Assembly: GCA_025056865.1 (NCBI GenBank) | Contig: JANWVO010000052.1 | Span: 124,001 to 188,000 of the forward strand | Length of the DNA: 64,000 nucleotides | Origin: Bryobacteraceae bacterium | GTDB lineage: Bacteria > Acidobacteriota > Terriglobia > Bryobacterales > Bryobacteraceae | Reading direction: 5' to 3' | In this document: one piece after another, positions 34,310-45,544 of the stretch | How positions within the stretch are numbered: the stretch's first letter is position 1 | Layout: each line of letters opens with the position of its first letter | Program-made: the position numbers and the translations under genes | Notes under the pieces: generated by a model | What the model was told of the DNA's origin: nothing | Databases searched by the model: none | The model's input: only the letters and a program-made list of their open reading frames with translations

Positions 34310-35830
34310 TCAAAGACTGTATCCCGCTTTCGAAGCCTTCACGCGGCCGTTGGCGGCCAGGTGCTCCAGAATCAGCGCCACCGCCTCTTCGGAATCCGCC
34401 CCGGCCTCGGCCGCAAGCTGGTCCACCGGCTTGGGCGCCGGCCCGAGCGCCGCCAGCAGTTTCTTCTGGAGCTCGAGCAGCGCCGCTGCGGCTTTCTTGC
34501 CCGCTTCCACGCCCGGCTGATGGTAGGCGTTGATGCCCACCAGCGACGCATAAAAGCCGGTCGCGCGTTCGAACAGGGCGATCAGCGCGCCCAGGCTGCG
34601 GGCGTCGACGCGCGGGATTGTGATCAGGATCGACTCGCGCCCGTTGTCCGTCAGCGCCTGCCGCGTGCCCAGCAGGAAACCATCCAGATAGTCGCCGGTG
34701 CGCACGCCGGGCTCCAGCTCCAGGGGGTCGCCGCCGTCTTCGAGCACGCGGATGAAAGTGACGAAGAAGTTGTTGACGCCCTCGCGGAGCTGCTGCACAT
34801 AGGCGTGCTGGTCGGTGGAGCCTTTATTGCCGTACACGGTGATTCCCTGCTCCACCAGCCGGCCTTCGCGGTCGTACTGCTTGCCCAGCGACTCCATGAT
34901 CAGTTGCTGGAGATACCGCCCGAACAGCAACAGCCGGTCCTTGTATGGCAGGATGACCATGTCCCTGCGGCCGCGGCCGCCAGTGGCGTAGTGCCACATC
35001 AGCGCCAGCAGCGCCGCCGGGTTGCGGCGCGTGAGACGCGTGCGCGTGGCTTCGTCCATGCGGGCGGCTCCCTCCAGCAGCCCATCGATGTCCAGCCCTT
35101 CCAATGCCGCGGGCAGCAGACCTACCGCGGAAGTAACCGACGTGCGGCCTCCCACCCAATCAAACATCGGGAAGCGGTCCAGCCAGCCCTGCTCCTGCGC
35201 GTATCGGTCCAGCTTCGAGCCGGGCAGGGTGATGGCCACGGCGCGCGGGCCAAAGGCTACGCCCGCGCGGGCGAAGGCCGCCTCGGCCAGCTTCATGCCG
35301 TTGTGCGTCTCCGGCGTCGTGCCGCTCTTGGAGATCACCAGCACCAGCGTGCGGTCCAGCCGCCCTTCCAGCAGGCTGAACACGCGCTCGATGCCGTCCG
35401 GATCGGTGTTGTCGAGAAAGTGCAGCCGCATGCGGTCGCGCTTTGGATGCCCGAGCGCGTCGGCCAGCAGCATCGGGCCAAGAGCCGAGCCTCCAATGCC
35501 AATGCTGAGCACCTCGGTGAAGGCGCCGGAATCGTGGATGCGCGCGGCGAATTCCCGCACCCGCGCCTCCGTCTCCTCGATGGCGATGCGGATGTCGGCC
35601 GAGGGCGCCAGCGCTGGCGCCCGCAACCAGTAATGGCCCACCATGCGGTTCTCGTCCGGGTTGGCGATGGCGCCCTTTTCGAGCTGCGCCATCTCGTCGT
35701 AGGCGCGCTGCATGGAGGGCTCCATGGAGTCCAGCCAGGCGCTCGAGAAATTCATCCGCGAGATGTCGAGGCTTACGCCCGTGGACGGGTCCGAAACCAG
35801 GTATTCGAGATAACGCTTGTACAAAGGCAT
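34310..35830 (-). CDS. pgi: Glucose-6-phosphate isomerase
   Basis: 506 residues. It interconverts glucose 6-phosphate and fructose 6-phosphate. The family motifs are [32 protein letters not shown], and [15 protein letters not shown], which carries an active-site His. The last ~45 residues ([29 protein letters not shown]) form an extra winged-helix-like tail not present in short bacterial Pgi. ATG 35830 is chosen over longer frames because GGGAGGGA lies seven bases ahead. It runs divergently from the S9 peptidase gene. Confidence 0.95.
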
Positions 35831-35887
35831 GGCGTTCCCTCCCAGCATATCGGTTCGCCGCGCGCGGGCGCGCCGGCGGCCCTCGCA

Positions 35888-35893
35888 CATAAT
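35888..35893 (+). promoter_or_regulatory. CATAAT -10 box close to the S9-peptidase start
   Basis: CATAAT ends eight bases before ATG 35902; the predicted transcript start is about two bases before the ATG. A purine run GGAAGGG lies between, too close to act as a normal ribosome site. No good -35 is seen. Confidence 0.35.
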
Positions 35894-35901
35894 GGAAGGG
35901 T

Positions 35902-38562
35902 ATGAAGTGGTGCTTCAGCGCTCTGTTCTGCCTCGCGCTTCTGGCCGCGGACCGTTGGACCGTGGACGACATCCTGCTCCAGGAGCAGGCTGGCAGCATG
36001 GAACTGTCCCGCGACGGCCGCATGGCGGTCTTCACGAAATCAAGGATCGACAAGGAAAAAGGGGAATCGGTCAGCCACCTCTGGCTGAAACGGTTTGACG
36101 AGGCCGAATCCATCCAGCTCACGCGCGGCCAGGACAGCGCCACCAGTCCGAAGTTTTCCCCTTCGGGCAGGCTGATCGCCTTCCTGTCGAGCCGGCGTCC
36201 GGCAGGAGCGGGGACACAGCCTGCCGGCGGTGCGCAGGGCACGGGCGAGCCGGCGGGCCAGCAGATCTGGCTCATGGATACCTCAGGCGGCGAACCATGG
36301 CAGCTCACCCGCTTCGAACGCGGCGTGCGCGCGTTTGACTGGATCAGCGACGACCAGATCGCCGCCGCGGCGCCGGAGGACCCGTCGCTGTATGACCAGA
36401 GGATCCGCGAGGCCAAAGACACATCGCGCGTCGTCGACGACGAGGAGCACGAGCCGCCCGTCCGCCTGTTCCGTGTCGCCGTCAAGGGCGGCAGGGCCGA
36501 GCGCATCACCACCAACCGGGACCGCATCACCAGCGTCGACGTATCCCCGGACGGGCAGTGGGCGCTGACCGTGCACAACCGCAGCCTCGCGGAGATCTAC
36601 AACCAGAAAATCAAGCCCGCCACGTTCCTCACGCGGCTTTCCACCGGCGAAAGCGTGGAACTGTTCACGGGCCAGAAGCTTTATCCGCGTTCTTTCCACT
36701 GGAAGCCCGACTCGAAATCGTTTTACTTTACCGCTCCCTATACGACGCACCCCTATCTGTTCAACGCCAGCATCACGAAGCTCTATCACTTCCCCATGTC
36801 GATGGCTGAACCGCTTGCGGCAGCGGCCAAGGCGAAGCCAGTCGAAGTGCCGCTTGACTGGGAAAACGCCCTGGCCGCATCTCCCGCCATCACGCCAGAC
36901 GGATTCGTGGCGTTGCTGGCCAACGGCGCCCGCAACCGGGTGGCGCGCTACTACGAGAGCGGCAACTCGTGGCGGCGGGAGTGGGTCGACGAACCCGACG
37001 TCCATCAGGTGTTGGCGGCCGCGGACGGCTCGCGCATCGTCTATGTGCGCTCGAATGCTTCCACTCCGCCCGTGTTCATGGCAGCGCGGCTGGCGGGCAA
37101 CCGCTTCGAGGAGCCAAAGCCGTTTGTGGAAACAAACGAGAATTTCAGGAAAAAGACGATCGCGAAGACCGAAGTCATCCGGTGGAAAGGCGCGCTGAAT
37201 GATGAGATTGAGGGAATCCTTTATTACCCGCATCACTACGAGCCGGGAAAGAAATATCCGCTGGTGGTGATGATCCACGGCGGTCCGCATGGGCACGACG
37301 CCGACGCCTTCCGCGAAAGCTGGGCCTATCCGCATCAGCTCTACGCGCAGCGCGGGGCCTTCATCCTGAAGCCGAACTACCACGGCTCCTCCAATTACGG
37401 ACTGAAGTTCGGCGAATCGATCTCCGGCGGAAAATACAACGATCTCGAGTGGATCGACGTGGAAAAAGGCGTCGACCATCTGATTGCAAAGGGTCTGGTA
37501 GATCCGGAGAAGCTGGGCGTCATGGGCTGGTCCAACGGCTCCATCATCAGCATTGAACTCTCCGTCCGCACCACGCGCTACAAAGCCGTCGGCGCCGGAG
37601 CCGGCGACGTCAACTGGACCAGCGACTGGGGCAACGCCGTCTTCGGAGACGCTTTCGAGCAGTACTACCTTGGCAAGACGCCGATGGATGACCCCGACTT
37701 TTACGTGAAAAAATCGCCGTTGTTCAAAATGGACCGGGTCACCAGCCCCACCATCATTTTCTTCGGCACAGAAGACCGGCAGGTGCCCACCGAGCAGGGC
37801 TGGCAGCACTACCGGGCGCTCCAGCACTACGGGAAGGCGCCGGTGCGCTTCATCCTCTTCCCCGGTGAGGCGCACAGCCTCCGCAAGTATGTGCATCAGA
37901 AGCGCAAGGTGGAAGAGGAGCTGGCCTGGTTCGACAGGTACCTTTTCGGCACCGCCTCCGCCGGCAGTCCCTCGCTGAAACCCGGTTCCCCGCTCGACGC
38001 GCTCGACCGTCTGAGGAAAGCGGGGGAAATCCCGGAGACCGTCGACCGCGGATCGATCGCTGTCGGCCGGTTCGAAGTGACCCGGGCCCAGTTCCGGGCC
38101 TTTGATCCTTCCTATTCCGTCCCGGCCGGCACGGAAATGCTGCCTGCCACCAGCGTGTCCTTCGAGAAGGCCCAGCAGTACTGCGAATGGCTTTCAAAGA
38201 AAACGGGACGGAAATACCGGCTCGGCACGGAGGAGGAGTTGAGCAGCCTGCTCACCCGCAGCCGCAATGAGAACACGCTCGACTACTGGGCGGGCTACGC
38301 GGTGAACTTCGACGATGCGGCCCGGTTGAAAGAATTCGTGGATCAGGCGGGAGCGGGGGCGCTCCTGCGGCCCGTGGGATCCTTTGCCGGCTCGGGCGAC
38401 GATCCGCTTTTCGATCTGGGTGGCAATGCAGCGGAATGGGTTGTCGGGAAGGACGGCAAGGGCAAAGTGCTCGGGGGAAGCGCGGATCAGCCGGCGGATC
38501 AGAAAGCGCCGGTGACCTCGCGCCCGGACTACATCGGCTTCCGGGTGGTCCTCGAGAAGTAG
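35902..38562 (+). CDS. Exported S9 prolyl oligopeptidase fused to FGE-like domain
   Basis: 886 residues. A signal peptide (ALFCLALLA) is followed by a DPP-IV/acylaminoacyl-peptidase beta-propeller (to about residue 400), then an alpha/beta-hydrolase catalytic domain with Ser near 544 (MGWSNGS), Asp near 625 (TEDRQVP) and His near 658 (GEAHSLRK). After a linker (about 680-715), the last 170 residues are a formylglycine-generating-enzyme-like domain ([51 protein letters not shown], and YIGFRVV at the end). The Cys pair that FGE needs for catalysis is not visible in that domain, so it probably binds rather than oxidises. The peptide substrate is unknown. Confidence 0.92.
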
Positions 38563-38572
38563 GCCCCTCCTC

Positions 38573-38601
38573 GGTAACACGAATTGAAGATTCGTGTTAC
38601 C
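38573..38601 (+). promoter_or_regulatory. Perfect 12-bp inverted repeat before the TonB receptor gene
   Basis: GGTAACACGAAT (38573-38584) and its exact complement (38590-38601) flank a five-base loop TGAAG. It sits between the S9-peptidase stop (38562) and ATG 38610. The symmetry and the AT-rich core fit a dimeric repressor operator for a metal- or cofactor-controlled uptake operon. It could also work as an RNA hairpin that hides the start, since no Shine-Dalgarno sequence lies between it and ATG. No T-run follows, so it is not a usual terminator. Confidence 0.65.
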
Positions 38602-38609
38602 ATGGGCGC

Positions 38610-40565
38610 ATGATCCCTGCCGTTCCGGTGATTGCGATTCTCTTATCCTTTGCGGGGAATGCCTCCGGTCCGGACGGCCCCTCGCTTGTGGTGGTGGATC
38701 CGAGCGGCGCACTGATCCCGAACGCCGTTGTCGAGCGCAACGGCCCGGTAGCGCGGATTTCCGCGCCGGGATTCGCCGGAAAGACCGTCGTCTTGCCCGG
38801 CAGCAGCGAAGAGGTGCGGGTGGTGCTTGAGCCGGCGCCGTTGCGGACGACGGTGGACGTGGTCGTGCGCGCTGCCGGCGCGGAGACCGCGCAGAGCATT
38901 TCCACCTCGGCACTGGAAATGGAAGCGACAGGCGCCCGCACAGTGCTGGACGCCGTGGACCGCGTGGCGCCATCAGCCTTTGTCACGCGCCGCAGCATCA
39001 TGGGTTACGGCATCGCCACCAATGGCACCGGCGCGGTGAGCGTGCGGGGCATCGGCGGCAGCCCGAACACGGGCGTGCTTGTGGTCGTCGACGGCAGGCC
39101 GGACTTTCAGGCGCTGATGGGACATCCCCTCCCCGATCTGTACACGTTGTCCGATGCTGCCTCCGTGCGCGTGACGCTCGGGCCGGCATCCGTGCTGTAT
39201 GGGTCCAACGCCATGGGCGGCGCCATTGAAGTGATCCCCGCTCGCCCCGAAGCGGGCTTCCAGACCCGCCTCACCACTTCGCTCGGCTCTTGGTGGACGA
39301 CGCAGAACCGGCTGAACCATGCGGCGAAGTTCAGCCGTGGCTTCTATTCGCTGAATGCGGGATACTCGGGGACTTCGGGAGAACGGCCCTCTTCGGATTT
39401 CCGCAACCCGGATGGCACGTTCACCTTCGGCGCCGACCTGTCGGAGCACTGGAAGGCATCGGTGGAAAGCCGCTACGGCTTCTTCCACGTGGAAGACCCT
39501 GGGCCTGTCTCCGCGCCTCTTCAGGGAAGCTGGGCCCGGGTGGGCCGGGGCGGTTACAGCCTGAATCTCAACAACGACTACGGCCGGACGTATGGCTATC
39601 TGCGTCAGTACGGCGCCTGGGGCCGGCATTTCATCACGGACGGCTTCCGCTCCACGGATTCGACGAAAGGCCTGCGCGCGATGCAGACCATCCTGCTGCG
39701 CCCGGAGCTGACCCTCGACGTCGGCGGCGATTTCAACCATTACGGCGGCGCGGCGCGCAACGTGAGGTCGCGGCTCGACTACGGGCGCCATGCGCTGGAG
39801 GAAGGCGCCGGATTCGCGCGGCTGCACTGGCAGGCGGCGCCGCGGCTGCTGCTGAATGGCGGCTACCGCCACCATCGCCATTCCGTCTATGGCGGGCTGA
39901 ATGTGCCGGAGGCCAGCGCCACCGTGCGTCTGCATCCGTTGGTGTCGTGGTCGGCAGGAGTGAGCCGCGGCTTCCGCAATCCGACGATCCGCGAGCTTTA
40001 CCTCTTCCCTGCCCCCAATCCGAATCTGCGCCCTGAGCGGCTCTGGCACTGGCATTCGACCCTTTACGTGCAGCCGCACCGCACCCTTTCGGCATGGGCA
40101 ACGGGCTATTATTCGTCGCTCACAGACCAGATCGTCACGCTCGGGCGCTTTCCGAACCTGCGGCTGGAAAACACGGGGCGTGCCATCCTGCGCGGCGCGG
40201 ATCTGAACGCGCAATGGGCTCCTTCCCGGGCCTGGCGCATCAGCGGGGGCGCGGGCCTGCTGCGCTCGGCGCAGATCGCCCCGCTGCTGCCGAAGAACAA
40301 GTTTAACGGCGCGGTGCAATACCACAACCGCCGCTTTTCGGCGAGCCTTTCGGCCATGCTCGTCGGACGCCGCTTCACCAACACGGCACGCACCGCCACG
40401 ATGGGCGGCTATCCGCTGGTCACTTTGCACGGCTCGTGGCGCGCCGCCCGGGGCGTCACCTTCTTCGTGCTCGCCGACAACGTGCTGAACCGCCGCTATG
40501 AAGTGCTGCCGGGCTACATCATGCCGCGGGCCAACGCGGCCGCAGGGTTGACCCTCCAGTTCTGA
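38610..40565 (+). CDS. TonB-dependent outer membrane receptor
   Basis: 651 residues. A signal peptide (VPVIAILLSFAGNASG) leads to a short carboxypeptidase-regulatory-like segment (VVVDPSGALIPNAVVERNG), then a plug domain (VSVRGIGGSPNTGVLVVVDGRP, VTLGPASVLYGSNAMGGAIEVIP) and a beta-barrel ending in the aromatic GLTLQF needed for assembly. Receptors of this size import siderophores, cobalamin, nickel or similar scarce ligands. It heads an operon with an S component six bases downstream, so its ligand or the metal it brings is probably the same one. The palindrome upstream fits ligand-controlled repression. ATG 38610 is the first start with a signal peptide. Confidence 0.93.
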   Translation: MIPAVPVIAILLSFAGNASGPDGPSLVVVDPSGALIPNAVVERNGPVARISAPGFAGKTVVLPGSSEEVRVVLEPAPLRTTVDVVVRAAGAETAQSISTSALEMEATGARTVLDAVDRVAPSAFVTRRSIMGYGIATNGTGAVSVRGIGGSPNTGVLVVVDGRPDFQALMGHPLPDLYTLSDAASVRVTLGPASVLYGSNAMGGAIEVIPARPEAGFQTRLTTSLGSWWTTQNRLNHAAKFSRGFYSLNAGYSGTSGERPSSDFRNPDGTFTFGADLSEHWKASVESRYGFFHVEDPGPVSAPLQGSWARVGRGGYSLNLNNDYGRTYGYLRQYGAWGRHFITDGFRSTDSTKGLRAMQTILLRPELTLDVGGDFNHYGGAARNVRSRLDYGRHALEEGAGFARLHWQAAPRLLLNGGYRHHRHSVYGGLNVPEASATVRLHPLVSWSAGVSRGFRNPTIRELYLFPAPNPNLRPERLWHWHSTLYVQPHRTLSAWATGYYSSLTDQIVTLGRFPNLRLENTGRAILRGADLNAQWAPSRAWRISGGAGLLRSAQIAPLLPKNKFNGAVQYHNRRFSASLSAMLVGRRFTNTARTATMGGYPLVTLHGSWRAARGVTFFVLADNVLNRRYEVLPGYIMPRANAAAGLTLQF

Positions 40566-40570
40566 CGACA

Positions 40571-41104
40571 ATGCACCGCCTGAGCCACGCCACCCTGCGT
40601 TCGCTTGTGATCAGCGCTGCGATGGGCGCGCTGGCGCTTGCCCTGCCGGCGGCCTTCCATGCCGTGGGTCTCGGCTCGCGCTTCCTGCCGATGCTGCTGC
40701 CGCTGCTCGTCAACGGCTACTTGAGCCGCTGGCCGTGGGCCGCCGCCACCGGCCTGCTGATTCCCTGGATCTCCGCCTTGGCCACGGGAATGCCGCCGCT
40801 GTATCCGCCAGTGGCGGCGATCATGAGCCTGGAAGGATTCGTGCTGGCCTCTGCAGCGGCAGCCACCCGTAGGCTTCCGTTGCCCGTTTCCGTTCCCATG
40901 GCAGTGCTGGCAGGGCGCGCCGCGGCGCTGGCTGGGGCCTGGACCGCCGCCGCCTGGCTGGATCTGCCCCCCGCCTTTGCATCGCTCGCGATGATCCTTC
41001 AGGGCCTGCCCGGCGTTGTGCTTCAATTGCTGGTGACCCCGGTGGCTGTTGCCGCGCTGCGGCGGAGGGGAGGTCTACTGTTCGATGAAACGCGCCTGGT
41101 TTGA
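40571..41104 (+). CDS. ECF-transporter S-component-like membrane protein
   Basis: 177 residues with about five hydrophobic helices (LVISAAMGALALALPAAFHAVG; FLPMLLPLLVNGYL; AAATGLLIPWISALA; the Ala-rich middle helix; LAMILQGLPGVVLQLLVTPVAVAAL). Size, topology and place in front of T and A components make it the likely substrate-binding S component of an energy-coupling factor transporter. The N-terminal MHI/EGF motif of CbiM/NikM is absent, so cobalt or nickel specificity cannot be assumed. No signature of biotin, thiamine or riboflavin S components was recognised. Its last 20 bases overlap the methyltransferase gene. Confidence 0.7.
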   Translation: MHRLSHATLRSLVISAAMGALALALPAAFHAVGLGSRFLPMLLPLLVNGYLSRWPWAAATGLLIPWISALATGMPPLYPPVAAIMSLEGFVLASAAAATRRLPLPVSVPMAVLAGRAAALAGAWTAAAWLDLPPAFASLAMILQGLPGVVLQLLVTPVAVAALRRRGGLLFDETRLV

Positions 41105-41684
41105 CGAGCTCGCGCCCCGCTGGGACACGCTGCCCGGGCAGCCGGAAACGGCGGCCCGGGTGTCGACGTTCGTCCGGAAAGCGATTGGCCACGGATGCCC
41201 GAGCGTCGTGGATGCGGGCGCTGGCACGGGGGTGCTGGTTCCCGCTTTGCTCGGCCTTCCGCAGCCGCCGGCGCTGATCGTTGAACTCGACTTCGCCTTC
41301 GCGATGCTGGCCGAAAACCGGCGCAAGCACGCCGGCGCGCCCTGTGTGCGCTGGGTCTGCGGCGATCTCAGCGCCCCGCCGCTGCGCGAAGGCCGCTTTG
41401 ACGCGGTGCTGTGCTTCAGCGCGCTGCCTCATGTGGAGGAAAAGCGCGCGGCGCTGGCCCGGCTGTTCGCGCTGCTGCGGCCCGGGGGCAGGCTGGCCGT
41501 CGGGCACCTGATGTCGAGCACGGCACTGAATGCCATGCACGCCGCCATCGGCGGCGCGGTGGCCAGCGACGAGCTGCCTCCGGCTCCGGAACTGGCAGCG
41601 CTGTGCGAATCTCTCGGCGCGCGGCCCGTTGTCGTTGAAGAGTGCGAGTCGGAATACACCGTGGTTGTGGAGAAGCTCGATTGA
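41085..41684 (+). CDS. Class I SAM-dependent methyltransferase inside the ECF operon
   Basis: 199 residues of the UbiE/methyltransferase-11 type. The N-terminal KRAWFDELAPRWD is like the opening of ubiquinone/menaquinone methyltransferases; motif I is VVDAGAGTGVLVPALL, followed by VRWVCGDLSAPPL and FDAVLCFSALPHV. The target is unknown. Placement between S and T components, with overlaps on both sides, argues for a function linked to the imported compound, such as methylating or trapping it. A GGAGGGGAGG run lies about a dozen bases before ATG 41085. Confidence 0.85.
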   Translation: MKRAWFDELAPRWDTLPGQPETAARVSTFVRKAIGHGCPSVVDAGAGTGVLVPALLGLPQPPALIVELDFAFAMLAENRRKHAGAPCVRWVCGDLSAPPLREGRFDAVLCFSALPHVEEKRAALARLFALLRPGGRLAVGHLMSSTALNAMHAAIGGAVASDELPPAPELAALCESLGARPVVVEECESEYTVVVEKLD

Positions 41685-42094
41685 GGCTGCCCGCCGCATG
41701 GACTGGACTGCTGATCTTCGCCGTTCTTCTGGCGGCGGCGGAAATGCTGGCGGGCCGCCGCGCGCCCTGGCTGGCCGCGAAGATGCTGGCGGCCGCAGCG
41801 GCTGGCGTGATGCTGTTCCGCCTCATCCCCTGGCCGCGGCTGGCGCGCCTGGGCCTCGTCAGCCGCAGGTGGCGGCTGGCGGCCCTGTATTTTCTCGTGC
41901 TGGCGCATTTTCTGCGGATCCTTGTGGAAGAGATCCGCTCTCTCTATTTCGCATGGAAACTCGCCGCGCCGCCTGCGTGGCGGCGCGTGTGGTGGAGGTC
42001 GCTCGCCCACGCCACGGCCAGCCTGTTTCCCCGTGTCCTGCGCCGCGCCGAGCGTTTCTACGCGGCGCTGCTCGTTTGCGGGATGGCGGAATGA
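41681..42094 (+). CDS. ECF-transporter T-component-like (EcfT/CbiQ) membrane protein
   Basis: 137 residues from TTG 41681, which overlaps the preceding stop; GTG 41642 would give a longer start. It is short compared with usual T components (about 250). Two or three N-terminal hydrophobic helices are followed by a basic region with coupling-helix-like features (RRVWWRSLAHATASLFPRVLRRAERFYAALLVCGM). The final RAERFYAAL resembles the Ala-Arg coupling motif of EcfT/CbiQ. Identity rests mostly on position between S and A components. ATGA overlap with the ATPase gene shows tight coupling. Confidence 0.65.
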   Translation: MRLPAAWTGLLIFAVLLAAAEMLAGRRAPWLAAKMLAAAAAGVMLFRLIPWPRLARLGLVSRRWRLAALYFLVLAHFLRILVEEIRSLYFAWKLAAPPAWRRVWWRSLAHATASLFPRVLRRAERFYAALLVCGMAE

Positions 42095-42756
42095 GCCTCG
42101 CAGCGCGCGTGGAAAACGTTCAGTTCCGCTTCGGGGAAAGGCCCGTGCTACGCGGCGTGAGCTTCACCGTGGCTCGTGGGGAGAGCGTCGGCATTGCGGG
42201 ACCCAACGGAGCCGGGAAGAGCACGCTGTTGTGGTGCCTGATGGGCCTGCTGAAACCTGTCTCTGGCAGCGCGCAGGTGTTCGGCCGCTTCGCCGCCGTC
42301 TTTCAGAACCCGGAGGACCAGCTCTTCATGCCAACCATCCTTGAGGATGTGGTCCTGCCGCTCGAAAGCCGTGGCATCGCCCGGGATCAGGCCCGGGCGC
42401 GCGCGCTGGAAGCGTTGCGCGCGGTCGCGCTGGATCATGCGGCGCCGCGCCCCGGCCATCAGCTCAGCCTCGGCGAGCGCAAGCGCGCCGCCCTGGCCGC
42501 GGCCCTCGCGCTCGAGCCGGACCTTCTCCTGCTGGATGAGCCCACCAGCGAGCTCGACCCGCGCTCCTGCCGCCTCTTGGCCGGGCATCTGAGCCGTCTG
42601 CCCTGTGCGCGTCTGATTGCAAGCCACCATCTCGACTTCCTGGCGGAAACCACGACGCGGCTGCTGATTCTCGATGAGGGCCGCATCGCCGCCGAAGGGT
42701 CCACGCGGGAGCTGCTCGCGGATGCGGAGCTGCTGCTGCGGCACGGGCTGAAATAG
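42091..42756 (+). CDS. ECF-type ABC transporter ATPase (EcfA/CbiO-like)
   Basis: 221 residues. Walker A GPNGAGKST, Q-loop FAAVFQNPEDQLFMPTILEDV (the DQLF form typical of ECF ATPases), signature HQLSLGERKRAALAAALAL, Walker B LLLLDEPTSELDP and H-loop ASHHLDF are all present. It energises uptake through the T and S components encoded just upstream. Only one ATPase gene is present, so it probably works as a homodimer. The stop is 32 bases before the antiporter gene. Confidence 0.93.
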   Translation: MSLAARVENVQFRFGERPVLRGVSFTVARGESVGIAGPNGAGKSTLLWCLMGLLKPVSGSAQVFGRFAAVFQNPEDQLFMPTILEDVVLPLESRGIARDQARARALEALRAVALDHAAPRPGHQLSLGERKRAALAAALALEPDLLLLDEPTSELDPRSCRLLAGHLSRLPCARLIASHHLDFLAETTTRLLILDEGRIAAEGSTRELLADAELLLRHGLK

Positions 42757-42788: not shown

Positions 42789-44474
42789 ATGGGCATCGCC
42801 GCGGACTTCGTACTCATTGTGATCGCCGGCCTCCTGGGCGCCGTGGCGGCGCGCCTCCTGCGGCTTCCGCTGCTGGTGGGCTACATCGCGGCGGGCGTCA
42901 TCGTGGGCCCAAATACGGCAGGCCCCACGGTGCAGTCGATCCACGACATCGAACTGCTGGCCGAGATCGGGGTCGCGCTGCTGCTGTTCAGCCTGGGACT
43001 CGAAATCTCCATCCGCGACATGCTTGCAGTGCGCCGTATTGCGCTGCTGGGCGGGCCCATCCAGATCCTTGGCTGCGGGGCGCTCGGCTGGCTGGCAGGC
43101 GTGCGCATGTTCGGCATGAGCGCGGCGGATGCCGTCTGGTTCGGAGCTATGGTGGCGCTGTCGAGCACGATGGTGATCGTCAAGATGATCGACGAGCGCG
43201 GCGTGTCGCGGACGCTGGCCAGCCGGGTGATGATCGGGCTGGCCATCATGCAGGATCTTGCTGTCATCCCGATGCTGATCCTGCTGCCGGAAACCGGAGC
43301 ATGGGACGGCGCTGCCGGGCGCCTGCTGCGCTCTTTGGGCGCAGCCGCGGCGATGGTGGCGGCGGTGGTCGTGCTGGGCACGCGCCTGTTTCCCTGGCTG
43401 CTGCGCCACATCCTGCGCTGGGGCTCGAGGGAGATGTTTCTCGTCGCCGTCGTTGCCATCAGCGTGGGCGTGGGCTTCGCGGTGAACCAGGCGGGGCTCA
43501 GCTTCGCCCTCGGGGCCTTCCTGGCCGGGCTGATGCTGAGCGAGAGCGAGTTCAGCCATCAGGCCCTGAGCGAGCTGGCGCCGCTGCGCGACATCTTCGG
43601 CCTGCTGTTCTTCGTCAGCGTCGGCATGCTCTTCGACCCGGCGTATGTGCTGGCGCATCCCTGGAAAATCGCAGGCGGAGTGTGCTTCATCCTGCTGATG
43701 AAGTCCGTGTTTATCGGCCTGCTGGCGCGCGCCTTCGGCTACATTTACATGGCGCCGTGGATCGTCGGCCTCGGCATGGCGAGCATCGGCGAGTTCTCCT
43801 TTGTGCTGGCGCGCACCGGCATTCGTGGCGGCTTCATCAGCAAGGAGACCTACGACTTTGCGCTCACCTGCACGATCCTGTCCATTGCGGTGGCCCCCGC
43901 CGTGGCCGGCCTCGCGCTGCCGTTGGGCCGGCTGTGGCGCCGGCGCTTCCCGCCGCCGCAGAAGGCGCGCCCCATAGAGCTGCCTCGCGAGCTGCTGCGC
44001 GATCACATCCTCGTCGCCGGCTACGGCCGCACGGGCCGCGCAGTGACGGGCGTGCTGCGCGCCGCAGGATTGCCCGTCGTCGTCATCGAGCTGAACCATG
44101 CGATCTTCAACGACGTCCGCGCCGATGGCATTCCCTGCCTCTGGGGCGACGTGGCCAGCGAGGAGATCCTGCGCGCGGCCGGCCTGAAGAATGCCCGCAT
44201 GCTCATCCTTACCGTGCCCGATGCAGACACCGTCCGCCTGGCCACGGAACGCGCGCGGCGCCTCGCGCCGGAGGTGCCCGTCATCGCCCGCGCGGCCCGC
44301 GTTCCGCTGATCGAGGAGCTGAAGCGGCTGGGCGCGGCCTCTGCCGTGCTGCCGGAATTCGAGGGCGGCATGGAGATGGCGCGCCAGGCGATGCTGCGCA
44401 GCGGCGTCGATGCGCGCCGCGCCGAAGAACTGATCCTGGCGGTGAAGGAGCGGTTCCTCGGAGAGAATCTGTAA
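42789..44474 (+). CDS. Kef-type monovalent cation:proton antiporter (CPA2) with TrkA-N domain
   Basis: 561 residues. About twelve transmembrane helices of the Na+/H+ exchanger fold (VGYIAAGVIVGPNTAGPTVQS; ALSSTMVIVKMIDERG; VNQAGLSFALGAFLAGLML) are followed near residue 404 by a cytosolic Rossmann TrkA-N domain (DHILVAGYGRTGRAVTGVLRAAG). These proteins exchange K+ or Na+ for H+ and are gated by nucleotide or glutathione adducts in KefB/C. There is no TrkA-C domain. It is downstream of, but likely independent from, the ECF operon. ATG 42789. Confidence 0.92.
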   Translation: MGIAADFVLIVIAGLLGAVAARLLRLPLLVGYIAAGVIVGPNTAGPTVQSIHDIELLAEIGVALLLFSLGLEISIRDMLAVRRIALLGGPIQILGCGALGWLAGVRMFGMSAADAVWFGAMVALSSTMVIVKMIDERGVSRTLASRVMIGLAIMQDLAVIPMLILLPETGAWDGAAGRLLRSLGAAAAMVAAVVVLGTRLFPWLLRHILRWGSREMFLVAVVAISVGVGFAVNQAGLSFALGAFLAGLMLSESEFSHQALSELAPLRDIFGLLFFVSVGMLFDPAYVLAHPWKIAGGVCFILLMKSVFIGLLARAFGYIYMAPWIVGLGMASIGEFSFVLARTGIRGGFISKETYDFALTCTILSIAVAPAVAGLALPLGRLWRRRFPPPQKARPIELPRELLRDHILVAGYGRTGRAVTGVLRAAGLPVVVIELNHAIFNDVRADGIPCLWGDVASEEILRAAGLKNARMLILTVPDADTVRLATERARRLAPEVPVIARAARVPLIEELKRLGAASAVLPEFEGGMEMARQAMLRSGVDARRAEELILAVKERFLGENL

Positions 44475-44511
44475 CCGCGCCGCTCCACGGCTGCGGCGCG
44501 GCGCTCTTCGC

Positions 44512-44517
44512 GAGAAT
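44512..44517 (+). promoter_or_regulatory. GAGAAT -10-like box before the O-methyltransferase start
   Basis: GAGAAT is followed by seven bases and ATG 44525. This repeats the spacing of the box before 31156 and supports a leaderless start at 44525 instead of the ATG at 44516, which lies inside the box. Confidence 0.3.
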
Positions 44518-44524
44518 GGAAGCA

Positions 44525-45544
44525 ATGACGCCCGCTGATCCCGCCCCGGTGCTGGACCTTATTGAAGCCTTCCGCCGTTCCAAGACGATGTTCACCGCCG
44601 TCCGGCTCGGCCTTTTCGACCGGCTCGAACAACGGCCGGCCCGTGCGGCGGAGCTTGCCGCACAAATTGGCGCCGACGCCGGCGCGCTCGAGCGGCTCCT
44701 CGAAGGCTGCGCGTCGCTCGGCCTGCTGGAGCGCAGTGCGGAGGGCGTCTTTGCCAACACGGCCACGGCCAGCGAGTATCTGGTCCGTTCCAGCCCGCGC
44801 ACTCTGGCCGGCTACATTCTCTACTCTGACGACGCGTTGTACCCCCTGTGGGGCGACCTCGAAGGCGCGGTGCGTGAAGGGCGCCCGCGGTGGGAAAAGA
44901 TTTTCGGCGCGCGCGGCAGCATCTTCGACCACTTTTACCGCACCGAAGAGGCGCGCGCGGCGTTTCTTTCCGGGATGCACGGACTCGGGCTGCTCAGCTC
45001 GCCCGCCGTCGTCCGCGTGTTCAATCTGAACCGCTTCGATACGCTGGTGGATCTGGGCGGCGGCACGGGCCATCTGGCCATCGCCGCCTGCGAGCGATAC
45101 GGGCGCATGCAGGCCATCGTGTACGATCTTCCCGAGGTTCTTCCGTCTGCGCGGCAGCACATCGAGGCTTCGCCGGCGCGGGAACGCATCACCTGTCAGG
45201 CAGGCGATTTCTTCCGCGATGCGCTGCCGCAGGCTTCCCTCTACGCGCTCGGCCGCGTTCTGCATGACTGGGATGACGCGCGCTGCCGCGAGCTGCTGGC
45301 CCGCGTCCACGAGGCCCTTCCGCCCGGCGGCGCGGTGCTGATCGCCGAGAAGATTCTCGACGAAGACCGCTGCGGTCCGGTGAGCGCCACCATGCAGTCC
45401 CTCAACATGCTGGTGTGCACGGAAGGCCGCGAACGCACGGAAAGCGAGTTCCGTGCGCTTCTGGAAGGCTGCGGCTTCCGGCACGTGGAGGCCCGGCGCA
45501 CCGGCGCGCCGCTTGACGCGATTCTCGCCCGCAGGGAACAATAG
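44525..45544 (+). CDS. Small-molecule O-methyltransferase (ASMT/hydroxyindole type)
   Basis: 339 residues. An N-terminal winged-helix dimerisation domain (VLDLIEAFRRSKTMFTAVRLGLFDRLEQ; ELAAQIGADAGALERLLEGCASLGLLE) is followed by a Rossmann SAM domain (LVDLGGGTGHLAIAAC, YALGRVLHDWDDARCRELLARVH, LIAEKIL). The HDWDD motif is typical of plant and bacterial O-methyltransferases. The substrate is unknown; no biosynthetic cluster is nearby. A second in-frame ATG at 44516 gives three more residues. Confidence 0.88.
   Translation: MTPADPAPVLDLIEAFRRSKTMFTAVRLGLFDRLEQRPARAAELAAQIGADAGALERLLEGCASLGLLERSAEGVFANTATASEYLVRSSPRTLAGYILYSDDALYPLWGDLEGAVREGRPRWEKIFGARGSIFDHFYRTEEARAAFLSGMHGLGLLSSPAVVRVFNLNRFDTLVDLGGGTGHLAIAACERYGRMQAIVYDLPEVLPSARQHIEASPARERITCQAGDFFRDALPQASLYALGRVLHDWDDARCRELLARVHEALPPGGAVLIAEKILDEDRCGPVSATMQSLNMLVCTEGRERTESEFRALLEGCGFRHVEARRTGAPLDAILARREQ

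Follow-up and report, generated by a model that had tools for sequence, protein, structure and literature searches.

A predicted NikR-controlled operon in Bryobacteraceae that joins a vitamin-type ECF S component to a conserved methyltransferase

What role could a methyltransferase have in the middle of a transport operon? The question is raised by positions 38610 to 42756 of a 64,000-nucleotide stretch (here, the window) of contig JANWVO010000052.1 from a Bryobacteraceae bacterium with a genome of 4.18 Mb in 61 contigs. Five plus-strand genes fill this interval and encode, in order, a TonB-dependent outer-membrane receptor, the S component of an energy-coupling factor (ECF) transporter (S), a class I S-adenosylmethionine (SAM) methyltransferase (MT), a short ECF T component (T), and an ECF ATPase. 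The junctions are a 5-base gap followed by overlaps of 20, 4, and 4 bases, in agreement with the sequence-only reading of this DNA, which had placed five genes here, joined by overlaps or gaps of less than 7 bases. Based on the evidence given below, we consider it probable that the operon is a nickel-acquisition system controlled by NikR and that it would work through the steps proposed here; repression by NikR and nickel as the cargo are what we infer from that evidence.

The five genes are conserved as a set. When 200 genomes of the order were searched with the protein, 22 had an S match: 18 strong (the window's own genome included) and 4 weak, near an E value of 0.0006. Wider stretches were taken for the 17 strong relatives (the family relatives). 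The order receptor-S-MT-T-ATPase is seen in 16 of these 17 (the L031 contig starts within the receptor gene), and MT lies directly 3' of S in all 16 whose contig continues. Four traced flanking genes are common only to relatives of the same genus (L026 to L029), so that it is the five genes that form the unit. In a profile search of 396 genomes of the phylum, S was found in 23 (own genome included; 18 strong relatives and 4 weak). MT is directly 3' of S in 18/18 strong matches elsewhere in the phylum and in none of the 4 weak ones; gene calls in loci L084 to L226 are open frames rather than annotations. When the two sets are combined, MT directly follows S in 34/34 phylum relatives whose S match is strong and whose contig is long enough. 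The methyltransferase, which had been picked out earlier as unusual in this position, is thus a constant member of the operon.

A perfect palindrome, GTAACAC-N13-GTGTTAC, lies at 38574 to 38600, 9 bp 5' of the receptor start, and its 12+12 bp arms extend over 38573 to 38601; from its position, we place it over the promoter. Within its own genome, this palindrome matches only itself at ≤3 mismatches. The NikR site published for delta-proteobacteria is GTGTTAC-N13/14-GTAACAC, and the same account gives the inverted form GTAACAC-N13-GTGTTAC in Desulfotalea and, for Desulfovibrio, a similar form 5' of nikK (PMC545781); the window site is identical to this inverted site. Among the family relatives the operator takes the form GTARCAC-N13-GTGYTAC and is found with ≤2 mismatches 5' of the receptor in 16/16 testable operons (the window and 15 relatives), exactly in 11 of them and always with a spacing of 13; L031 could not be tested, and L033, which has no receptor, was left out of the count. 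At <3 mismatches, none of 2,791 stretches of 480 bases drawn at random from these loci contains it, and a chance palindrome is rejected on this comparison. The conserved gene order and the shared operator also support the earlier proposal that receptor and ECF importer serve one ligand across both membranes.

The same pattern is found at other places. In the window's own genome, just two sites match it with at most 1 mismatch. One is the operon, and the other (1 mismatch) is 12 bp 5' of the start codon of a CbiM/NikM-type gene whose product starts with MHIPDG and which is followed by cbiQ- and cbiO-type genes (L045, 6745 to 9004). Across the 200 genomes of the order, the exact pattern occurs at 29 sites in 27 genomes, compared with 3 sites for the reversed control. 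Twelve of the 29 precede operon-type receptors (in G116 on a contig other than that of S), 3 are beside nikR, and 10, in nine loci, precede other receptor-domain genes (L188, L192, L194, L197, L206 to L208, L210, and L211; L206 and L207 have only a carboxypeptidase-regulatory-like domain, L211 is under the cut-off, and in L192 one of two overlapping frames was chosen). The remaining 4 are unclear, with no clear nickel gene adjacent (L193, L196, L198, and L209). The exact standard box GTGTTAC-N13-GTAACAC is 5' of the S-MT operons in L216 and L217 and of nikR in L111. The exact inverted box precedes the operon in L220 and L125, as it does, with a spacer of 14, in L124. One-mismatch boxes are present in L215 and L222 (5' of the receptor, or of nikR for locus L122).

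A NikR gene is present in the host (L212, 1421 to 1828, minus strand; PF08753, 113.5 bits versus a cut-off of 22); its product scores over two NCBIfam NikR cut-offs (193.1 versus 105 and 155.8 versus 83) and under a third (142.9 versus 175.45). NikR was found in 135 of the 200 genomes of the order: in 18/18 of those with a strong S match and in 117/182 others (Fisher P = 0.0006, with relatedness ignored). In ten loci nikR is close to MT (L091, L097, L098, L100, L111, L120, L121, L122, L123, and L152), as it is in the wider stretches L215, L218, L219, and L222. Eight of these loci are from Acidobacteriota (L091, L097, L098, L100, L215, L218, L219, and L222), and the others are from Bacteroidota (L111 and L152), Ignavibacteriales (L123), Bacillota (L121), and Deltaproteobacteria (L120 and L122). 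In a Clostridia contig (L147, 6679 to 10703), an S-MT fusion gene is flanked by two HypB genes (scores of 226 and 221.8 bits against a cut-off of 121.2), with an FAD oxidoreductase before the second. Many PF00374 matches, counted for nickel hydrogenases, span only about the first 80 positions of the profile, presumably as complex I-like proteins would give. Taken together, the NikR-type operators and the neighboring nikR and hypB genes point to a link between the operon and nickel.

Could the cargo instead be cobalt or a corrinoid? According to a review, NikR sites tend to accompany nickel systems, and B12 riboswitches tend to accompany cobalt systems (PMC7689651). No Rfam regulator reaches the gathering score in the window or in 17 loci, in which the sole match is one tRNA, and cobalamin control was rejected on the lack of a B12 riboswitch in this set. 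If the operon imported cobalt or cobalamin and had a NikR-type box only by coincidence, with an MT that acts on corrinoids, this would account for the best NCBIfam match of the receptor, which is to a B12 receptor (TonB-B12, 70.7 bits, far under the cut-off of 599.7), for a weak CpaM match of MT (30.4 bits, cut-off 180), and for the vitamin type of S described below. This reading leaves aside the missing riboswitch and the NikR boxes with adjoining nikR and hypB genes in several phyla, and we regard it as very improbable. The suggestion in the sequence-only reading that the ligand might bind a metal is supported and narrowed to nickel by these operators and adjoining genes, while cobalamin, one of the candidates it raised, is disfavored.

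The receptor (38610 to 40565, plus strand, 651 amino acids) is over the Pfam cut-offs for PF00593 (88.7 bits) and PF07715 (47.1 bits). S (40571 to 41104, plus strand, 177 amino acids) is a six-helix membrane protein whose predicted model has a pLDDT of 89.8. The model's 17 best Foldseek matches in the PDB are all ECF S components (BioY, RibU, ThiT, PanT, FolT, and others), with weak scores (E = 0.07 to 2.5; TM = 0.45 to 0.65 by query length), and a profile of 11 S proteins matches RibU at E = 0.0014. Because of this profile match and the fold matches, we assign S to the vitamin (RibU/BioY-like) type. Membership in the NikM/CbiM family was rejected: no CbiM family was among the Pfam results, the NCBIfam CbiM score is 11.4 bits versus a cut-off of 205, and S begins with MHRLSH rather than MHIPDG, with the His at residue 2 not conserved, which bears out the earlier remark that S lacks the CbiM/NikM start. 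In 33/33 rows of an alignment in which some sequences are counted twice, S retains Phe29, His30, Gly35, Phe38, Pro40, Pro44, Pro65, Met74, Pro75, Arg116, and Pro147, and Met41 is kept in 32/33. In the model, His30 and Met41 are in the connection from helix 1 to helix 2 or at the ends of these helices, and Met74 is between helices 3 and 4, in loops that, from known S-component topology, we take to face outward.

T (41681 to 42094, plus strand) has 137 amino acids if it starts at the TTG codon that overlaps the MT stop. It keeps the C-terminal CbiQ part, and its alignment with the T proteins of L215, L220, and L222 indicates that it lacks the N-terminal membrane part seen there. T components carry their coupling motifs in the C-terminal part. 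Between the stops of MT and T, there are 182 to 187 open residues in five relatives and 137 to 145 in the others. The CbiO/EcfA-like ATPase (42091 to 42756, plus strand, 221 amino acids; PF00005, 93.6 bits) has the Walker motifs GPNGAGKST and LLLLDEPTSELD in its translation and scores 147 bits with NCBIfam ECF_ATPase_2, under the cut-off of 330. None of the five genes encodes an N, K, or L subunit of the NikMNQO or CbiMNQO kind.

MT (41085 to 41684, plus strand, 199 amino acids; PF08241, 61.6 bits) has an intact DxGxGTG SAM motif. An alignment of 27 sequences shows no exception at Phe6, Trp13, Pro115, His116, His141, or His152; the fused proteins of L147 and L160, which are outside that alignment, have another residue in place of His141. 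Known SAM methyltransferase families (BioC, UbiE, CpaM, and DVU_1556) were rejected, the best score being 51.0 bits versus 155 among the 25 of 31 families listed, and PDB searches with MT gave general methyltransferases only, among the matches listed. S and MT are both present in 31 loci, and in 30 of them MT follows S within 187 bases of the profile ends or is fused to it. In a Pelosinus locus (L118, 5391 to 8585), the order is S, TonB receptor, MT, with the receptor separating the other two. Five loci have S and MT in a single open frame, 388 to 397 residues long: L097, L099, and L100 are from Acidobacteriota, and L147 and L160 are from Clostridia and Bacilli. With Pfam, the fused proteins of L147 and L160 match for S as well as for MT, and that of L097 matches for MT alone. 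Viral contigs gave no relative of the fused protein. Because of this linkage, fusions included, a joint role of MT with S is likely. Both ends of S components are cytoplasmic, and a methyltransferase fused to the C terminus would therefore act in the cytoplasm.

Gene order, operator match, NikR presence, conservation, and S-MT fusion can be read directly from sequence, and from these features we propose the following sequence of events. When cytoplasmic nickel is low, NikR would leave the palindrome 5' of the receptor gene. The receptor would take a nickel complex through the outer membrane, S would bind this complex in its outward loops (His30, Met41, and Met74), and S, T, and the ATPase would together carry it into the cell. 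At the cytoplasmic face, MT, located beside S and covalently joined to it in some relatives, would methylate the incoming organic ligand, upon which nickel would be released or the ligand would be unable to leave. That MT acts on the imported ligand, which the sequence-only reading had raised in the form of trapping or maturing it, is our leading guess, somewhat short of probable. As a general scheme, transport-coupled methylation, in which a vitamin-type S imports a nickel-ligand complex and an S-bound MT alters the ligand on arrival, in at least 4 phyla and with S-MT fusions in two, is a tentative and rather doubtful proposal.

Other roles for MT have to be weighed against its partners in more distant loci. 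A collection scan with the MT alignment gave at least 108 relatives, of which 80 were kept. Among the matches listed, and with three family members left out, 19 loci have an MT scoring ≥130 bits: S is nearby in 6 of them, ZnuA or ABC-3 genes are present in 11, and 2 have neither (L109, which is cut by a contig end, and L112). Below 130 bits, most of the loci listed have neither transporter, the exceptions being L129, L147, L152, and L160, in which S is present. The ABC-3 and ZnuA profiles were built from L110, L119, L120, and L122, so that these loci match by construction, and low scores in other loci can mean divergence; Pfam confirms one or more ZnuA/ABC-3 genes in L115, L119, L120, and L126. 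By Pfam, L120 (2942 to 8606) contains nikR, a receptor, a ZnuA-like gene, an ATPase, an ABC-3 permease, and MT, in this order, and by the purpose-built profiles L122 (2837 to 8606) has the same NikR-headed ZnuABC-like set ending in MT. These two operons are possibly a nickel version of ZnuABC. In a tree of 54 MT sequences (FastTree, midpoint root), S-linked and ABC-3-linked sequences are interleaved, which suggests changes of partner, a point that we do not press.

Because MT occurs with two unrelated inner-membrane importers, it may have a role that is tied to nickel and not to a particular transporter. This favors the explanation that MT makes or finishes a nickel-binding small molecule, either a secreted nickelophore or an internal nickel buffer, instead of modifying an imported ligand, as does the fact that MT is under the same predicted NikR control as the receptor. 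However, the conserved five-gene set contains no further biosynthetic gene, and fusion of MT to S suggests action at the importer; we think this explanation unlikely. A further alternative, that MT regulates the importer (for example, by methylating S, T, or the ATPase) without touching the cargo, draws on the close association of MT with S in all but one of the S + MT loci, L118, with its intervening receptor, being the exception. It is at odds with the presence of MT beside ABC-3 importers that lack S, and the fold matches of MT are to small-molecule and other methyltransferases, which does not decide the substrate. We consider a regulatory role improbable. Our ranking is thus modification of the ligand on entry, then biosynthesis of a nickel ligand, then regulation.

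A number of observations weigh against the nickel-import reading. At curated cut-offs, the window's own copies of S (12.1 bits with PF12822, cut-off 30.7) and T (23.7 bits with PF02361, over positions 130 to 204 of 216, cut-off 25, tested with the longer open frame from 41642) miss their ECF profiles, an outcome that the sequence-only reading had named as damaging to it. This is true of the window and false of several relatives: S is over the PF12822 cut-off in L121 (41.6 bits), L215 (33.3), and the fused proteins of L147 (53.5) and L160 (65.4), and T is over the PF02361 cut-off in L215 (95.0), L220 (64.4), and L222 (69.4), while the T proteins of L107 and L108 (PF02361) and the S part of the L097 fusion have no Pfam match. 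S is of the vitamin type and not NikM/CbiM, and the cargo may therefore be something other than bare nickel, or may not be nickel in any form. At ≤2 mismatches in the window's own genome, the reversed control pattern outnumbers the real one (22 versus 8), and because of this only hits with 0 or 1 mismatch are informative genome-wide. No box with ≤2 mismatches is present in L118, L120, L121, L126, L147, L160, L213, L218, or L219, several of which are nikR-linked or fused, and the same is true of L110, L113, L116, L128, L130, and L221. L033 has neither receptor nor operator 5' of S, and its contig ends just after S. The weak S homologs (L102 to L105), which lack part of the conserved S signature, have no MT, NikR, receptor, or operator (0 or 1 mismatch) within about 6 kb. 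Finally, 13 of 53 compared MT sequences are with neither transporter by the purpose-built profiles, and in L119 MT is with ZnuABC-like genes near a Fur-family gene, in what is possibly a zinc or iron system.

The genes around the operon have features of their own. On the 5' side, 35902 to 38562 encodes an S9 peptidase (PF00326) with a C-terminal formylglycine-generating-enzyme-like domain (PF03781), an odd combination, and 34310 to 35890, on the minus strand, encodes a phosphoglucose isomerase that has at its C terminus a DprA-type winged-helix domain barely over the cut-off (24.9 versus 22.9 bits). On the 3' side, a KefB/YbaL-type antiporter (42789 to 45544) is found in the same place in 4/4 same-genus relatives taken (L026 to L029), and the O-methyltransferase (PF00891) that follows it was matched in 1 of these 4 (L026).

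For most bacteria, little is known about the chemical form in which nickel passes through two membranes. The combination of a vitamin-type S with a constant MT partner in a NikR-linked set predicts that nickel enters with an organic ligand, and MT is the enzyme whose substrate would reveal that ligand. Members of the MT family also mark nickel operons in which the importer is of quite another kind, and the MT substrate may therefore be a general part of nickel acquisition. If vectorial modification of the ligand is true, it would be without known description for metal uptake.

We place the operon with nickel ECF import, as a probable variant with a vitamin-type S and a constant MT. No description of the S-MT pair or of the five-gene combination was found in the literature searched, which had most subscription journals outside its reach. 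We know of no ECF importer or methyltransferase in the operons of the NikR-controlled receptors of Helicobacter. What these share with the system proposed here, in the accounts of FrpB4, FecA3, and NikH drawn on here (PMC11247825 and PMC7689651), is a nickel TonB receptor under nickel control. Likeness in components is seen with NikMNQO and NikKMLQO, nickel ECF importers under NikR control, as outlined in the sections used of PMC545781 and PMC2667541: a CbiQ-type T, a CbiO-type ATPase, and a NikR operator with the same length and half-sites. The present operon differs from those systems in that its S is not NikM/CbiM, subunits N, K, and L are all lacking, T is shortened, and MT and the receptor are members of it; it is set apart from NikMNQO because S failed the test for an M subunit. 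The NikR loci of Caldithrix abyssi, in which nikR, a TonB receptor, and cbi/nikMNOQ homologs are together predicted to be for nickel transport, are similar by description, the only basis of this comparison, and no MT is mentioned in the part of that report used here (PMC5317091). BtuM is an S-component-like importer of vitamin B12 that is coupled to chemistry on its cargo; in the portion of its description used here, it acts through a cysteine of BtuM itself, and apparently does so on the periplasmic side (PMC6072759), whereas the present system has a separate or fused SAM enzyme that is expected to be cytoplasmic. By analogy, BtuM is a precedent for the combination of transport and chemistry in an S-component fold.

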